A stretch of DNA of 27,787 bases from a virus. This document shows positions 1,841 through 17,389 of the stretch, piece by piece. The notes beneath the pieces were generated by a model, which worked only from the letters and a program-made list of their open reading frames with translations, was not told where the DNA came from and ran no database searches. Both the position numbers and the translations under genes were made by a program. Every line of letters starts with the position of its first letter. Positions within the stretch are counted from its first letter, which is position 1. The stretch lies in the IMG/VR virus record IMGVR_UViG_3300027861_000158, positions 1 to 27,787 of that record; one strand, 5' to 3'.

Positions 1841-1872
1841 TTGTTTTGTAAGTTGTAGAGCGGTATAATTGA
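1838..1872 (+). promoter_or_regulatory. Sigma70-type promoter, copy 2 of the 35-bp repeat
   Basis: TTGTTT (1841-1846), 17-nt spacer, TATAAT (1864-1869). The sequence is identical to 1303-1337 and diverges immediately on both sides. Transcription should start near 1876 and run into the structured RNA region and, if not terminated at the 2011-2015 T-run, the tRNA and the methyltransferase operon. Confidence 0.85.
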
Positions 1873-1875
1873 AGA

Positions 1876-2092
1876 GTAGTGAAGCGGTGTGAGAGTCGCT
1901 GATAGGTAAAAGTAGCAAGGGTTTGTAAGTTCTGGTCTTAGTGTTCGTGAGGAAACTCTCACTTATGCTTTTACCACTCCCGAGTTACTAGGGTCAGATC
2001 TTATAAGCCCTTTTTGTGTCTAGCGTAAGTGAAATTCTTACCCTAAAATGTGATTAAAGCGGCGCTAGTGGAAACCTAGCCTAGACACAGCC
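1876..2092 (+). ncRNA. Highly structured non-coding RNA region upstream of tRNA-Arg
   Basis: No open frame fits; complementary segments are dense. Helix C pairs 1917-1943 with 1986-2012 (26 of 27 positions paired including G-U; only 1930/1999 mismatched) and is followed by TTTTT. Helix A pairs GTGAGAGT (1889-1896) with ACTCTCAC (1955-1962). Helix B pairs 1905-1914 with 1966-1975 (10 bp, one G-U). The 3' strands of A and B both lie in the loop of C, so A, B and C cross one another: pseudoknots or alternative folds. A local hairpin (1947-1951 with 1958-1962) competes with A. Downstream, TTGTGTCTAG (2014-2023) pairs with CTAGACACAG (2081-2090) and encloses hairpins GTAAG/CTTAC (2025-2041) and GCTAG/CTAGC (2064-2080). 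I do not match it to a known class. The 3' boundary is uncertain. Confidence 0.65.
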
Positions 2093-2116: not shown

Positions 2117-2190
2117 ATCCCATTGGCGCAACTGGATAGCGCAAGAGGTTTCTACCCTCTAGGTTGCAGGTTCGAATCCTGCATGGGATA
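2117..2190 (+). tRNA. tRNA-Arg (anticodon UCU)
   Basis: Full cloverleaf. Acceptor ATCCCAT (2117-2123) with ATGGGAT (2183-2189); D stem GCGC/GCGC around AACTGGATA; anticodon stem AGAGG/CCTCT with loop TTTCTAC, anticodon TCT at 2151-2153; 5-nt variable region; T stem GCAGG/CCTGC with loop TTCGAAT; discriminator A2190. CCA is not encoded (CAA follows). It reads AGA codons, which are common in this phage's genes. It lies downstream of the structured RNA region and may share its promoter at 1838. Confidence 0.97.
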
Positions 2191-2285
2191 CAAATCCTTA
2201 GCTCAATCAGCTATCCGCACAAACGAACAATTTAACTGACTGCTGTAATACGACTTTTCAAGACGAGATAAACGGGTTTTAGTGC

Positions 2286-2448: not shown

Positions 2449-2613
2449 ATGAAAGTAACAATAGAAGTATCTAAGCGCGAACTTGAGGAGATGAAGGTTA
2501 GCGAAAAAGATTTAAAGTGGCTGGCTATTGGTTTGCTTGATTGTGATTCTAGCAGAACTGAGATGGCTCCGTTTAACGTGTATGTAGACGTTATTGAGTC
2601 AGATAACTTATAG
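2449..2613 (+). CDS. Hypothetical 54-aa protein
   Basis: ATG at 2449 with GAAGGA about 8 nt upstream. The product starts MKVTIEVSKRELEEMKVSEK and ends with an acidic stretch. An N-terminal beta strand followed by a helix (SKRELEEMKVSEKDLKWLAIGLL) gives a plausible small folded protein. It lies between the tRNA and the methyltransferase in the same direction. Function unknown. The 15-bp TTAAATTAACTGAAT just before this gene (2416-2430) recurs before the methyltransferase (2622-2636). Confidence 0.65.
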   Translation: MKVTIEVSKRELEEMKVSEKDLKWLAIGLLDCDSSRTEMAPFNVYVDVIESDNL

Positions 2614-2662
2614 GCTAAGACTTAAATTAACTGAATAGATAAATAACAAAGAGGGTTTGATT

Positions 2663-3373
2663 GTGATTAAGCTGATGAAAGGTGATTGCCTAGAGAGAAT
2701 GAAAGAAATAGAAAGCGGTAGTGTTGATATGATATTAACCGATCCTCCTTACGGTACGACAGCGTGTAAATGGGATTCAATTATCCCACTAGAACCAATG
2801 TGGGAGCAGTTAAAGCGTATTATAAAGCCTAATGGTGCTATTGTGATGACAGCGAGCCAGCCTTTTACAACTATACTAATAGGCTCTAATATGAAAGGTT
2901 TTAGATACTCATGGGTGTGGGAGAAAGAGCAAGGGGTTAATTTTCAGCATGCAAAAAGACAACCTTTAAAAGTGCATGAGGATGTTTGCGTTTTCGGAGT
3001 TAAATCACCTTTATACAATCCGCAAGGGTTAATACCTTGTGATATAAAAAAATCTAATAAATTCAAAGGTGGAAATCTAGGCCATTGCGGTAGCGAGAAA
3101 AAAAGGAGTGAATACAAGCAAACTGTTAAAAACTACCCTAAAAGCATTCAAAGGTTTAATCGGGAGAGAGGCTTGCACCCAACCCAAAAACCAGTAGCCC
3201 TAATGGAGTACCTAATTAAAACCTACACCAACGAAAATGAAACGGTTTTAGATTTTACAATGGGAAGCGGCACCACTGGCGTAGCAGCTAAAAACCTAAA
3301 TCGCGACTTCATAGGTATTGAGTTGGATCAAGGTTATTTCGATATTGCGGAGAAGCGCATTAATGAGACGTGA
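2663..3373 (+). CDS. Orphan DPPY DNA methyltransferase (N6-adenine/N4-cytosine type)
   Basis: Motif IV, TDPPYG, lies near residues 26-31. Motif I appears near the C-terminus as LDFTMGSGTTG, followed by FIGIELD. This IV-target-I order is the beta-class arrangement of the N6_N4_Mtase family (Pfam PF01555). HPTQKP before motif I is also typical. The protein should transfer a methyl group from S-adenosylmethionine to an exocyclic amino group of DNA; the recognition site cannot be read from sequence. GTG at 2663 is chosen because GAGGG ends 7 nt upstream; TTG at 2657 is too close and ATG at 2675 far. No restriction enzyme lies beside it, so protection of phage DNA from host restriction is the likely role. 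Confidence 0.92.
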   Translation: MIKLMKGDCLERMKEIESGSVDMILTDPPYGTTACKWDSIIPLEPMWEQLKRIIKPNGAIVMTASQPFTTILIGSNMKGFRYSWVWEKEQGVNFQHAKRQPLKVHEDVCVFGVKSPLYNPQGLIPCDIKKSNKFKGGNLGHCGSEKKRSEYKQTVKNYPKSIQRFNRERGLHPTQKPVALMEYLIKTYTNENETVLDFTMGSGTTGVAAKNLNRDFIGIELDQGYFDIAEKRINET

Positions 3374-5222: not shown

Positions 5223-5260
5223 CTGGTCGGAGCAGTAAAAACACTAAAGCCTGATAACAT
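5218..5260 (+). promoter_or_regulatory. Copy 3 of the dispersed element with TAACAT box: candidate phage-specific promoter
   Basis: AGTAACTGGTCGGAGCAGT at 5218-5236. Eighteen nt after the core is TAACAT (5255-5260), preceded by TGA, which gives an extended -10. It points to the operon starting at 5298. The TAA stop of gene 5091 is inside the element, as in copy 1. Confidence 0.6.
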
Positions 5261-7730: not shown

Positions 7731-9418
7731 GGTCTTTAATGAAAAGGCTTGACCAAATAGAGCCTAGAATACAGTCGCAAGTAGGTGCATTAGACAAAAC
7801 TGTTTACGGGATAGTTAATAAGGTTGACAAGATTGACGGTGAGTTAGTTCCTCGCTTCATAAGAAGGTGGAAAGGAACCATAGGAAATATGGAACTAACC
7901 GATGAAGATCCAACCATATGGCTAATTGAAAAGCTAGAACCTCTAATACTTGTTCATAAAAAAAACAAAGGCGCGTGGGGTGGCAGAGCTGGCACTAAAT
8001 CAATTATGGCTATGGATGCCATGATTGGCGAGGTAAACTCTAGCGGGGTTGGCGTCTTTTGCCTGCGAGAGCGCATGAAGTCAATATCGCAATCAATATA
8101 TAAAGGTATTAATGGAAGAGTTAAAGCGTTAAACCTTGCAGGGTTTAACCCAGTCGAGTCTAAGTGGAAGATAGACCATAGAAATGGCGGGATAATATCA
8201 TTCGGCGGCTTGATGAATGTTGAGGATATGAAGTCACTATTTAATTACAAGTATTTCTTACTGGAAGAGGCAGCAAAGACAAGTCAGCATGCTCTTGATA
8301 CTCTAGGGCCTACACTCAGGGGTGTTGATGGTGCTGAGCAGTGGATGATCTGGAATCCATTATCAAGTAACGACCCTATGAGCTTAGAGTTTATAGTTCC
8401 ATATCAAGAGCATTACGACCGGCAAGGGTATTACGAAGATGATCACCATTTAATCATAAAGGTTGGTTATGAGGATAACCCATTTTTTGAGCACGACTCA
8501 TCTTTGGTTGAGGAGTTCGAGAAAGATACGGCAAAGGTTAAGGATGGGAGAATGAGTAAGTCTAGATATAATCATATATGGCTAGGGCATTTTAATGACG
8601 ACATTGAAAACTCAATAATAGTTGCCGACTGGTTTGACGCTTGCGTAGATGCTCACATAAAACTAGGTTTCCAACCTAAAGGAGCCGTAGTAGTCGGGCA
8701 CGACCCTGCTGACGTTGGCGGAGACAAGAAAGGCTACATGGAAAGGCACGGCGTGGTGTTCATCAAGGCTGACGAGATAGACTCGATTAACGCAAATGAC
8801 GGGTTTGACATAGCGTGTAGATATGCAAAAGAATCTAACGCTGATTCATTTGGATGGGATTGTGATGGCATGGGCGCACTACTAAGAAATCAAGCGGAGG
8901 CTAACTTTAAAGGCACTAGGATGCACACATTCATGTATAAAGGCAGTGAGGGCGTGCATTTACCGGAAGCTATATTTGACGCGTCAGAAAACTACAACAT
9001 GAAAGGGCAAAAGAAAAACAAAGACGTATTTAAAAACAAAAAAGCGCAAAACATAGTCTCATTTGCCGAGCGGTGCAGAAGAACATGGGAAGCTGTCACC
9101 TTGGGCGTATACCACGACCCTGACACGTTGATAAGCTTTGCTAGTTACAACGAAGAAACAAAAGAGGGCATAAGCAAGCAGACAATGAGCAAGCTAAGAT
9201 CTGAGTGCTGCAGAATGCCTTTTAAACCAGGGGACACAATATCATTTTACTCAAAAGAAGATATGAGAAAGGGGATATTGCAGCCAGATGGTAGTAAGTC
9301 AAAAATACCATCTCCTAACCTATTTGATGCTGCCGTGTTGTCATTTGATAATGCTGGTATAATAGTCAAAAGCAATAATGAGCCTATCGATATTCCTAAC
9401 GAGGTCAACTACTGGTAG
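7727..9418 (+). CDS. Terminase large subunit (packaging ATPase and nuclease)
   Basis: 563 residues. An unusual N-terminal coiled-coil extension (about 1-40) precedes the ATPase. Walker A is GGRAGTKS at 85-92; the Walker B-like YFLLEEA is at 176-182 with the catalytic Glu pair; the coupling motif WNP is at 209-211. The nuclease domain begins with VVVGHDPADVGGD (Asp326), continues with GWDCDGMG (about 376-383) and ends with NLFDAAVLSFD near residue 530: the acidic triad of RNase-H-fold terminases. It belongs to the Terminase_3/PBSX-like group. It docks on the portal and pumps DNA into the prohead. The start overlaps the HNH stop (ATGA-type coupling); ATG at 7739 is an alternative. Confidence 0.96.
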   Translation: MRSLMKRLDQIEPRIQSQVGALDKTVYGIVNKVDKIDGELVPRFIRRWKGTIGNMELTDEDPTIWLIEKLEPLILVHKKNKGAWGGRAGTKSIMAMDAMIGEVNSSGVGVFCLRERMKSISQSIYKGINGRVKALNLAGFNPVESKWKIDHRNGGIISFGGLMNVEDMKSLFNYKYFLLEEAAKTSQHALDTLGPTLRGVDGAEQWMIWNPLSSNDPMSLEFIVPYQEHYDRQGYYEDDHHLIIKVGYEDNPFFEHDSSLVEEFEKDTAKVKDGRMSKSRYNHIWLGHFNDDIENSIIVADWFDACVDAHIKLGFQPKGAVVVGHDPADVGGDKKGYMERHGVVFIKADEIDSINANDGFDIACRYAKESNADSFGWDCDGMGALLRNQAEANFKGTRMHTFMYKGSEGVHLPEAIFDASENYNMKGQKKNKDVFKNKKAQNIVSFAERCRRTWEAVTLGVYHDPDTLISFASYNEETKEGISKQTMSKLRSECCRMPFKPGDTISFYSKEDMRKGILQPDGSKSKIPSPNLFDAAVLSFDNAGIIVKSNNEPIDIPNEVNYW

Positions 9419-9423
9419 AAACT

Positions 9424-11535
9424 ATGAAAGAGAATAATAACGAGCAGAAGATTGGCCATATCCTAAGTGATTACACTAAGGCGTGGGAGTCTCAAGAAGA
9501 CCAAAGAGAGGCCGCTGTTGAAGATATGCGGTTTAAAACTGTTGCCGGTTCAATGTGGGAAGACTCGATAGGTAGACAATTTGCTAATCGACCACGCTTT
9601 GAGATGGATAAGATTAGCCGAGAGATTAACCGCATTATGGGAGAGTACCGCGCTAATCGTATCAGCGTAGACTTTAGGCCTGATGGTGGAGACTCTAATG
9701 ATGATGTTGCTGAGATACTTGATGGTATGTATCGCAATGATGAGCGCAAGACTAATGGCCAAGAGGCTTACGATACTGCCTTTGGTGAAGCGTTAGATGG
9801 CGGCATGGGTTGCTGGAGGCTTAAAGCAAAGTATGAGGATGAGGGCGACCCAGAGAACGACAATCAAGTAATTGCTATAGAGCCAATACTATCAGCTGTA
9901 TCAATGATTATATGGGATCCTGATGCTGTACTTTATGACAAGTCAGACGCTCGTAAGTGTTGGCTGCTTCATGAGTACACACCAGATGCATTTAAAGAGA
10001 AATGGCCTGATGCTGAATTAAATGGCTTCCCAGGCGCACCGATTGATAACTACTCAGCTAGATTTAATTGGTTTAGGAAAGATGTAACTTACGTTGCCGA
10101 GTACTTCGAGAAGGTTAAAGAGACAAGAACGATCTTAACTTACGTTGACCCGACTACAGGCGATAGAGTTCAGTATGATAAAGAGTCAGTTAAAGAAGTC
10201 ATTGATGAGATGATTGAACTAGGCTTTGAGCAGGTATCATCTAGAAAGGTTGTTAAGGATAGAGTTAATAAATATTTGGTGACGGGTAACGAAATACTGG
10301 AAGGGCCAACCCGCGTTGTTGGTAGTGAAATACCAGTAGTCCCAGTTTACGCTTACAGAAAGTACATCGATGGTAAAGAGTTTTATCATGGTGAAGTTAG
10401 GAAGATGAAAGACCGCCAGCGCTTGCTTAATATGCAGGTTTCAACACTTGCAGAGATTAGCGCGACCAACCCGAAAGAGAAGTTAATAGTACATCCTGAC
10501 GCGGTACAGCGCCACATGAGTTCATGGGCTAGGTCTAATATCGATAACAAGCCATTCTTAATGCTTGACAGTGCCAACGATAAGAACGGAAACCCTATAA
10601 GCCCGATACTTGGTAAGACTACACCGCCAATGGTTCCGCAAACTACTGACGCGCTATTAGGGTTTATAACTGCAGACATGCAGCAAGAGTTGCCAATAAG
10701 CGATCCAAATGTATCTAGTAACGTATCAGGTGTTGCAGTACAAAAGGCTCAGCAAAGAACGGATATGAGTAACTTTATTCTGTTTGATAACATGGCTAAG
10801 TCAATGCGCCGTTGCGGGCAAATATGGATGGGTATGGCTAAAGAGCTGTATTCAATGCCTCGCACTGCAAGAATGGTCAACCCTGATGGCTCATCAAATA
10901 ATGCAACGCTAATGGAAATTGTTATTGATGAAGAGAGCGGCATGCCAGTTTATCTTAATGACATTTCAAAAGGTTCTTATGAGGTCGTAACAGATGTAGG
11001 CCCGTCATTCTCAACTAGACGCGATGCAATGCTAGACACGTTAACAGAGATGATCCAGTTTACCCCTGCTGACAATCCAATCTATCCATTCATAATGTCC
11101 GGCATAGTTGAGAACATGAGTGGGCCAGGTATGGACGATATCAAGACTATTAACAAGCTTCTTAAACTTCAGCAGATGATGCAGTACGGGATTGCAGACC
11201 CTCAAGATGAAGAAGAAGAACAGTATATGCAGATGATCCAGCAGCAACAGCAGCAACAACAGCAGCAACCAGACCCCATGATGGTGGCAGCTCAAGCCGA
11301 GATGCAGAAAGCATCGGCAGCTCATCATGATGCACAGGTTAAGGCTGAGAAGAATCAAATCGATATGTACAAAGCACGCACTCAGTTTGTAGTTAACCAA
11401 GAGAAGAACAACATCGAAGCTGCTAAGGCTGGCGTTAACATGCAGAATATGCAGGTTGACACGGTAGGTAAGCAGATAGAGAACGCTCAGAAGTTACAGC
11501 AAGCATTAAGGCCGCAGATAGCAATGCCTCAGTAA
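9424..11535 (+). CDS. Portal protein, P22 gp1-like
   Basis: 703 residues, near the 725 of P22 gp1. The N-terminal region (KIGHILSDYTKAWESQEDQR, then FANRPRFEMDKISREINRIM) and the GEYRANRISVDFRP block match the P22-type portal family (Pfam P22_portal). The C-terminal part contains a glutamine run (about residues 605-614, encoded by mixed CAG/CAA) followed by a long amphipathic helix, fitting the barrel domain of P22 portals. The dodecameric ring is the site of DNA entry and of tail attachment. It starts 5 nt after the terminase gene with a weak ribosome site, so it is likely coupled. Confidence 0.95.
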   Translation: MKENNNEQKIGHILSDYTKAWESQEDQREAAVEDMRFKTVAGSMWEDSIGRQFANRPRFEMDKISREINRIMGEYRANRISVDFRPDGGDSNDDVAEILDGMYRNDERKTNGQEAYDTAFGEALDGGMGCWRLKAKYEDEGDPENDNQVIAIEPILSAVSMIIWDPDAVLYDKSDARKCWLLHEYTPDAFKEKWPDAELNGFPGAPIDNYSARFNWFRKDVTYVAEYFEKVKETRTILTYVDPTTGDRVQYDKESVKEVIDEMIELGFEQVSSRKVVKDRVNKYLVTGNEILEGPTRVVGSEIPVVPVYAYRKYIDGKEFYHGEVRKMKDRQRLLNMQVSTLAEISATNPKEKLIVHPDAVQRHMSSWARSNIDNKPFLMLDSANDKNGNPISPILGKTTPPMVPQTTDALLGFITADMQQELPISDPNVSSNVSGVAVQKAQQRTDMSNFILFDNMAKSMRRCGQIWMGMAKELYSMPRTARMVNPDGSSNNATLMEIVIDEESGMPVYLNDISKGSYEVVTDVGPSFSTRRDAMLDTLTEMIQFTPADNPIYPFIMSGIVENMSGPGMDDIKTINKLLKLQQMMQYGIADPQDEEEEQYMQMIQQQQQQQQQQPDPMMVAAQAEMQKASAAHHDAQVKAEKNQIDMYKARTQFVVNQEKNNIEAAKAGVNMQNMQVDTVGKQIENAQKLQQALRPQIAMPQ

Positions 11536-17350: not shown

Positions 17351-17389
17351 ACTATAACGCCAAACTTTCGTTTCACTGCTCCGACCAGT
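17351..17389 (-). promoter_or_regulatory. Copy 4 of the dispersed element (minus strand) with TATAGT box
   Basis: On the minus strand ACTGGTCGGAGCAGT spans 17389 to 17375. Eighteen nt after it is TATAGT (17356-17351), a good -10. It points into the minus-strand cassette 17322-16617, so the orientation again follows the downstream gene. The opposite face lies over the -35 region of the plus-strand promoter at 17396. Confidence 0.65.

Follow-up and report, generated by a model that had tools for sequence, protein, structure and literature searches.

Large ornate noncoding RNAs (ncRNAs) that lie close to tRNA genes have been described in several phages. GOLLD is a phage and prophage ncRNA of this kind, with tRNA islands nearby, linker tRNAs in some members and an unknown function (PMC12286853). 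ROOL is likewise a large, ornate phage RNA, often found near tRNA islands, whose structure contains a pseudoknot and kissing loops (PMC12286853). The Vibrio cholerae phage ICP1 has an abundant ncRNA of ~800 nt, which its discoverers likened in size to GOLLD and ROOL (PMC7567579). Shorter structured RNAs that directly follow a phage promoter are also known, including HK022 put RNA, which forms two simple hairpins, and the 6S RNA of the lambda pR'-tR' region, to which lambda adds a terminator. The genome paper of Vibrio phage NF, one of the relatives discussed below, describes a phage without tRNAs and does not mention noncoding RNA (PMC10196503). A search of the open-access literature yielded no earlier description of a large ncRNA in these phages; subscription papers were not covered.

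The stretch of DNA analyzed here (the window, 27,787 nt) comes from an IMG/VR virus record and is a fragment (27.8 kb) of a P22-like podovirus, with matches to Terminase_3, P22 portal and P22 coat. Positions 1876-2430 of the plus strand are predicted to encode an ncRNA of ~555 nt that includes an embedded tRNA-Arg, and the modular architecture of this element is conserved in its full-length homologues (~400-690 nt, the length differing partly with tRNA number). A promoter is followed by the 5' pseudoknot domain, the U-tract, tRNA slots 1 and 2, the 3' pseudoknot domain and a variable gene, in that order. The comparisons described below show at the sequence level that this is a conserved, strand-specific, pseudoknotted element with tRNA slots. 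The interpretation favored here, with a probability of roughly 0.6, is that it is a pseudoknot-rich phage ncRNA of ~550 nt, a structural RNA comparable to GOLLD and ROOL that acts in trans; its transcription, processing and role are inferred. Both ends of the RNA (1876 and ~2430) are also inferred rather than measured, and, judged from sequence alone, the 3' end likely falls just before the ribosome-binding site of the next gene. An earlier sequence-only reading of the locus had ended the feature at 2092. This boundary failed, as the element continues to ~2430 and is about twice as long; the reading had overlooked both the second pseudoknotted domain and the fact that the adjacent tRNA lies inside the RNA. 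Its claim that the region has no ORF held, in that no plus-strand ORF of ≥50 aa is present between 1841 and 2448.

A putative sigma-70 promoter is located at 1841-1869 (+) and consists of a -35 element TTGTTT (1841-1846), a 17-nt spacer and a -10 element TATAAT (1864-1869), with the start expected at ~1876. The description of this promoter as near-consensus held only in part: the -10 element is perfect, and the -35 element matches at only 3 of 6 positions. Because of this weak -35 element, the site at 1841-1869 was not listed by a consensus promoter scan of the window. Support for the promoter is provided by an exact 33-nt copy of the promoter stretch at 1305-1337 and by sites of the TTGCA-N17-TATAAT type at the same position in the homologues from NF, H2, Seahorse and K68.

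The 5' domain (plus strand) begins with the hairpin P1 (AGCGG/UCGCU, 1883-1900), the loop of which displays the 5' strand of helix A (GUGAGAGU, 1889-1896). This strand forms 8/8 pairs with its partner A' (ACUCUCAC, 1955-1962), and the 5' strand of helix B (GGUAAAAGUA, 1905-1914) forms 10/10 pairs with B' (UGCUUUUACC, 1966-1975). The long helix C (1919-1943, pairing with C' at 1986-2010) crosses both A and B. At its full extent (1917-1943/1986-2012) helix C contains 26 of 27 possible pairs with a U-U as the sole mismatch, and its two outermost pairs join A1917-A1918 to U2011-U2012, which are part of the U-tract. The strand order is A B C A' B' C', such that all three helices cross. Helices A, B and C had been placed at exactly these coordinates by the sequence-only reading and held as read, as did the 10-bp stem at 2014-2023/2081-2090 and the tRNA at 2117 that are discussed below; a local hairpin, said to compete for one strand, is present at 1947-1962. 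Nucleotide U1896 has two possible partners, A1955 in helix A or G1887 in P1. The best crossing-helix pair of the window outscores 200 of 200 dinucleotide shuffles, and the region has an MFE z-score of -2.19, MFE being blind to pseudoknots. The helices had been described as either pseudoknots or mutually exclusive states, and sequence alone cannot decide between coexistence of A, B and C and a switch. In type I, the arrangement of the window, the B-to-C linker is short (4 nt) and a GGG/CCC contact is possible above C; consequently, B together with all of C is sterically tight, and a switch is possible. In both this arrangement and the type II arrangement described below, A and B lie beside C with loops near minimum length, which leaves room for a switch or for a C helix that is partly open.

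At least 15 further records, from IMG/VR or named phages, contain homologues of the element. With BLAST, unannotated matches were identified in Vibrio phage NF (87% over 1884-2021) as well as in Vibrio phage 1.122.A/B (81%); the matching stretch in each case lies within a gene-free gap of ~610 nt. Pattern scans of IMG/VR added the loci L005 (= L006, L008), L010, L012, L013, L014-L016, L022-L024 and L026. A search with a covariance model built from the 5' domain returned one strong copy per homologue record, which is expected given that the same records built the model. NF and the L008 record each have a weaker second copy that was outside the model, scoring 46.9 bits (E 3e-8) and 37 bits (E 5e-6), respectively. 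The pattern matches L007, L009, L011, L017-L021 and L025 were rejected as chance, as were all 24 pattern matches in prokaryote genomes, all of these being without a significant profile match or A/B/C helices. An exact 24-base pattern taken from the window had no match among viral contigs, a search for prophage copies using exact patterns only found none, and no copy was found in plasmids.

Absence of covariation in homologues would have counted against the structure, and this test did not refute it: all of the crossing helices covary in 14 homologues. In an alignment of these 14 sequences, 93% of cells are paired in the pseudoknotted P1+A+B+C structure, and pairing falls to 42-47% when partners are shifted by 1-3 columns. 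The covariation score of the structure is 0.299 vs 0.138 +/- 0.009 for shuffled controls (0/500), sixteen pairs are altered on both sides, and P1, A, B and C each covary. Homologous P1 stems include GCGG/CCGC, GUAG/CUGC, GCAG/CUGC and GUCGG/UCGAC. Helix A occurs as GUGAGAG/CUCUCAC, GUAGGAG/CUCCUAC, GUGGUAG/CUACCAC and GUGAGAU/AUCUCAC, with 77/77 cells paired. Helix B has 10 distinct variants, all pairing 10/10 (110/110 cells, vs 80% when strands are swapped between sequences). Helix C has 7 pairs with changes on both sides, as well as a whole U-A base pair inserted in L004 and a whole pair deleted in L022-L024. MAFFT lowers the alignment counts by aligning P1/A of L022-L024 and the upper part of C of L004 incorrectly; for this reason, the helix strands were additionally inspected in each sequence separately. 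In that check the lower part of C in L012 was scored one base out of register (6/15) and is fully paired by eye when in register. The strands of the E helices in the 3' domain and of the type II members were picked by eye for the pairing counts; therefore, an unbiased crossing-helix shuffle test and an unbiased search for helix X were added. In the former, which is alignment-free, 22 of 24 homologues have a best crossing pair that exceeds every one of 200 dinucleotide shuffles, and the remaining two gave 3/200 and 12/200.

Other members of the family retain the A-B-C network in a different order. All 12 type II members (NF copy 2, L052, vB_VaM_H2, BT-1011, Seahorse, 1.275.O, 1.054.O, 1.240.O, 1.110.O, 242E40-1, Pseudoalteromonas HS5 and BS5) have their strands arranged as A B C B' A' C', with B nested in A and C crossing both. 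These members share little sequence, and their strands pair with themselves at 96-100% vs 50-58% with strands swapped. The retention of the network in largely different sequence with permuted strands indicates that the fold, rather than the sequence, is under selection. The two types are related, since the type II profile finds type I members (E 3e-7 to 8e-4). Vibrio phage NF has one copy of each type at different sites on opposite strands (L056 10680-10830 (-) and 21744-22265 (+)), each in a gene-free gap that precedes a gene for a serine/threonine or calcineurin-like phosphatase. A third order, A B C A' C' B', is possible in K68, 1.119.O, 1.144.O and 1.071.A, where it was read by eye from the sequence; these phages have the same 3' domain after their 5' pseudoknot and a crossing pair in the shuffle test. 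Some part of the K68 element is matched by 91 Vibrio phage records. Published annotations place small ORFs inside the ncRNA of K68 (L058 1341-1550), HS5 (L060 1438-1578 and 1754-1843) and BS5 (L061 1565-1678) and a 'tRNA-Und' inside that of 242E40-1 (L070 1587-1689), all of which are probably annotation artefacts.

These comparisons also bear on the alternative that the locus is a DNA element, such as a recombination hot spot, an origin or a mobile element, with inverted repeats that merely resemble RNA helices. The two copies in NF and the swapping of modules between phages would suit this explanation. However, the crossing helices have compensatory changes and G-U pairs as well as paired insertions and deletions, the promoter and tRNA order are strand-specific, and crossing is not required of inverted repeats in a DNA site. 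A DNA element is consequently all but excluded.

Between the 5' domain and the first tRNA slot is a U-tract (2011-2015 (+)), which is U5-U7 in homologues that keep the slot. The tract is missing in HS5 and K68, both of which are without a tRNA slot, suggesting that it belongs to the tRNA junction. As the U-tract follows helix C, the strongest rival to a trans-acting RNA is an attenuator, which remains possible. In this model C and the U-tract are the terminator and the A/B pseudoknot, formed first in the course of transcription, is the antiterminator, together controlling read-through into the tRNAs and following genes in the manner of put sites or lambda pR'-tR'. Consistent with an attenuator, in type I members C has a GGG/CCC closure and U5-U7 directly behind it, meeting the hairpin/U-tract criterion for an intrinsic terminator; A and B cross C, with the element's own promoter just upstream; and the terminase and late genes are downstream in the window and NF. 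In contrast, HS5 and the K68 type are without a U-tract, which an attenuator would need there too, yet retain a 5' pseudoknot and the 3' domain. Furthermore, the model leaves a covarying 3' domain of 200 nt unexplained, the downstream genes are mutually unrelated, and the C loop of ~42 nt and A+U-rich stem are atypical of strong terminators.

Slot 1 of the window is occupied by domain D, a 77-nt tRNA-like structure (2014-2090 (+)) in which a 10-bp acceptor-type stem (2014-2023/2081-2090) closes two hairpins. This stem covaries, with the 5' strands GUGUCUG, GUAUCUG, GUACCUG and GCGCCU having matching partners. The D domain of the window has no match to tRNA models (ARAGORN, Rfam), and that of NF falls short of the cut-off of the tRNA model (21 bits vs 29). 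Slot 1 holds real tRNAs in Seahorse (Trp-Arg-Gly), H2 (Met-Arg), 1.085.O, L075, L077 (Ser-Arg) and L079, forming an array that begins immediately behind the U-tract in Seahorse, H2 and L077, and D occupies the position of the bona fide tRNAs of L075, L077, L079, H2 and Seahorse. Slot 2, ~30 nt beyond slot 1, contains tRNA-Arg(TCT) in the window (2117-2191 (+), with no encoded CCA), a tRNA-Arg in L013 and a 42-bit tRNA in L026; it is vacant in L010 and 1.122.A, and L004 has nothing at that place. The L026 tRNA (9364-9465 (-), ~90-100 nt, 42 bits with Rfam) is flanked by ACTGTATAA/TTATACAGT arms within the ncRNA, and it is possible that it was inserted into a stem loop. The commonest slot tRNA is tRNA-Arg(TCT), seen in the window, L013, H2, Seahorse, 1.240.O, 1.085.O, L075, L077 and L079.

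An alternative based on these tRNAs is that the 5' domain is a tRNA-operon leader or cap that stabilizes the precursor or tunes the RNase P cut at the first tRNA, with the 3' domain being a separate 5' UTR that belongs to the following gene. The close spacing supports this alternative: tRNA-Ser begins 1-2 nt after the type II 5'-domain profile match in L075, L077 and L079, and in Seahorse and H2 the 5'-domain match ends 0-4 nt before tRNA-Trp and tRNA-Met, respectively. BT-1011 (L067 1495-1650) also fits, as its complete 5' domain is followed by a broken tRNA-Met start running into an ORF; the slot and 3' domain have likely been deleted. Against a leader or cap, many members are tRNA-free (NF, 1.122.A, 1.275.O, HS5 and K68) and retain both knotted domains, and slot 2 tRNAs are away from the 5' domain. 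This explanation is thus considered unlikely.

A decoy or counter-defense RNA, in which the tRNA mimic D and a fast-changing knotted domain saturate a host defense factor that acts on tRNA or senses RNA, is a still weaker alternative. Sequence turnover is rapid with a constant fold, the tRNA-like D is degenerate in many phages, and the site adjoins methylases and other accessory genes, all of which would suit a decoy. However, there is no direct evidence for this role and no known system was matched, making it very unlikely.

The 3' domain (~200 nt) is the second knotted part of the RNA and consists of two nested helices, E1 and E2, that are both crossed by helix X. In the window (plus strand), E1 pairs AAGAC (2260-2264) with GUCUU (2397-2401), E2 pairs GUGCAUGG (2282-2289) with CCAUGCAC (2385-2392), and X pairs CUGUAAU (2243-2249) with AUUACAG (2343-2349). 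E1 has 8 distinct variants with 58/59 cells paired vs 51% when cross-paired, and E2 has 7 distinct variants with 84/84 cells paired vs 48%. The 7-bp X helix of the window is not significant by itself (117/500), and neither is that of HS5 alone. The unbiased search placed the best helix of 13 of 16 homologues at the shared X offsets, 15-20 nt before E1 and 24-35 nt before E2' (Fisher p 5e-6), and that of L013, H2 and Seahorse at other offsets. Almost all cases that were inspected, L3 and 1.085.O among them, have the 5' and 3' domains together, BT-1011 being the exception. Downstream of the 3' domain, the window has a first ORF of 54 aa (2449-2613 (+)) and an N6/N4 DNA methylase (2657-3373; PF01555, 8e-35). 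The genes at this position across phages include N6, D12 and C5 methylases, calcineurin-like phosphatases, HNH, T5orf172 and a head scaffold protein. Since the downstream gene differs between phages, it is probably not a regulated target of the ncRNA.

The relationship of the element to known RNAs was assessed using Rfam 15. The window and 7 homologous loci were scanned at the gathering threshold, and the limit was relaxed to E up to 10 for the window region, L003 and L026. This search, which the sequence-only reading had proposed as a check, produced only tRNA matches and chance matches, and no known family other than tRNA was found. Sub-threshold matches to MIR844, YrlA, CRISPR-DR, snoR24 and similar models were rejected as chance. 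The claim that the region is not RNase P, tmRNA or a group I intron held: there is no Rfam match in the window to any of these or to T-box, and ARAGORN finds no tmRNA there. The covariance models of GOLLD and ROOL also had no match in the window or homologous loci (E up to 10 for three of them), so any analogy to these RNAs is architectural only. The proposal of a candidate new phage ncRNA class is supported by this lack of Rfam 15 matches beyond tRNA, by covariation and by unannotated homologues, although transcription has not been shown.

At the level of architecture, the element resembles GOLLD in having structured domains and tRNAs in a linker (here in the window, L013, L026, Seahorse, H2, 1.085.O, L075, L077 and L079). 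In contrast to GOLLD, which is often >800 nt, it is ~555 nt in the window, its helix set is not the same, and it comes from marine gammaproteobacterial phages. The likeness to ROOL is that of a large, ornate, pseudoknotted phage RNA with a tRNA association, but here tRNAs lie inside the element, the permuted A-B-C core is distinct and there is no Rfam match. The ICP1 RNA is also a large ncRNA of a Vibrio phage, but ICP1 is without tRNAs, and no ICP1 record is among the BLAST matches, which is an indirect comparison only. The put and 6S RNAs share the order of promoter and then structured RNA, but lack crossing helices, tRNA slots and a 3' pseudoknot domain. By analogy, then, the element would represent a new family among the large ornate phage RNAs rather than a member of GOLLD or ROOL.

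The favored trans-acting reading combines features seen in the sequence with inferred steps. Seen in the sequence are a long hairpin C that holds in its loop the partners of the P1 loop (A) and of B, a linker after the U-tract that carries at least one tRNA or a remnant resembling one, and a 3' domain, with X crossing E1/E2, that completes the RNA. It is inferred that the RNA would be transcribed from its own sigma-70-type promoter during infection, and that RNase P and 3' processing would free the tRNAs, with the U-tract as an exposed junction. By analogy with GOLLD and ROOL, the two knotted domains may act in trans, alone or as an oligomer, and the linker tRNA may be cargo or a by-product. 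Action in trans is favored over a cis leader because the element has its own promoter-like site, occupies two sites on both strands in NF, and precedes unrelated genes. Points against a trans-acting RNA are the absence of transcript data, the resemblance of a U-tract after a long hairpin to an intrinsic terminator, and a 3' end that is without an obvious terminator and abuts the next gene start, which would suit a leader. A bolder reading is a new class of phage RNA machine with two pseudoknotted domains, in one of which core strands are re-ordered with contacts kept; tRNAs or their mimics would be captured in the linker, and assembly would occur in trans during infection, perhaps as a cage. 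This is tentative, and the balance tips against it.

GOLLD and ROOL are large, abundant phage RNAs that are found beside tRNAs and have no known function, and a separate, unrelated-looking family appears to share their plan at ~550 nt, smaller than most GOLLD RNAs. As the family is present in cultured Vibrio and Pseudoalteromonas phages with culturable hosts, the coupling of large knotted RNAs to tRNAs becomes testable. Moreover, helix strands that change order while their contacts are conserved offer an unusual natural experiment in how RNA folds evolve.

Two further observations concern DNA outside the element. The promoter duplicate at 1305-1337 is followed by a very stable, three-way-junction-like leader (1344-1425; MFE z = -5.0, no shuffle equally good), which is possibly a second structured RNA, and a T5orf172/MUG113 ORF (1426-1722) is located directly after it. 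The same ORF family is found immediately 3' of the large ncRNA in L022. Furthermore, the motif CTGGTCGGAGCAGT has four exact copies in the window vs 0.08 expected (210-223, 844-857 and 5223-5236 (+); 17375-17388 (-)), each ahead of small ORFs, and may represent a repeated phage control element. In Pseudoalteromonas phage BS5, the ncRNA is preceded by a near copy of CTGGTCGGAGCAGT (L061 1437-1448).
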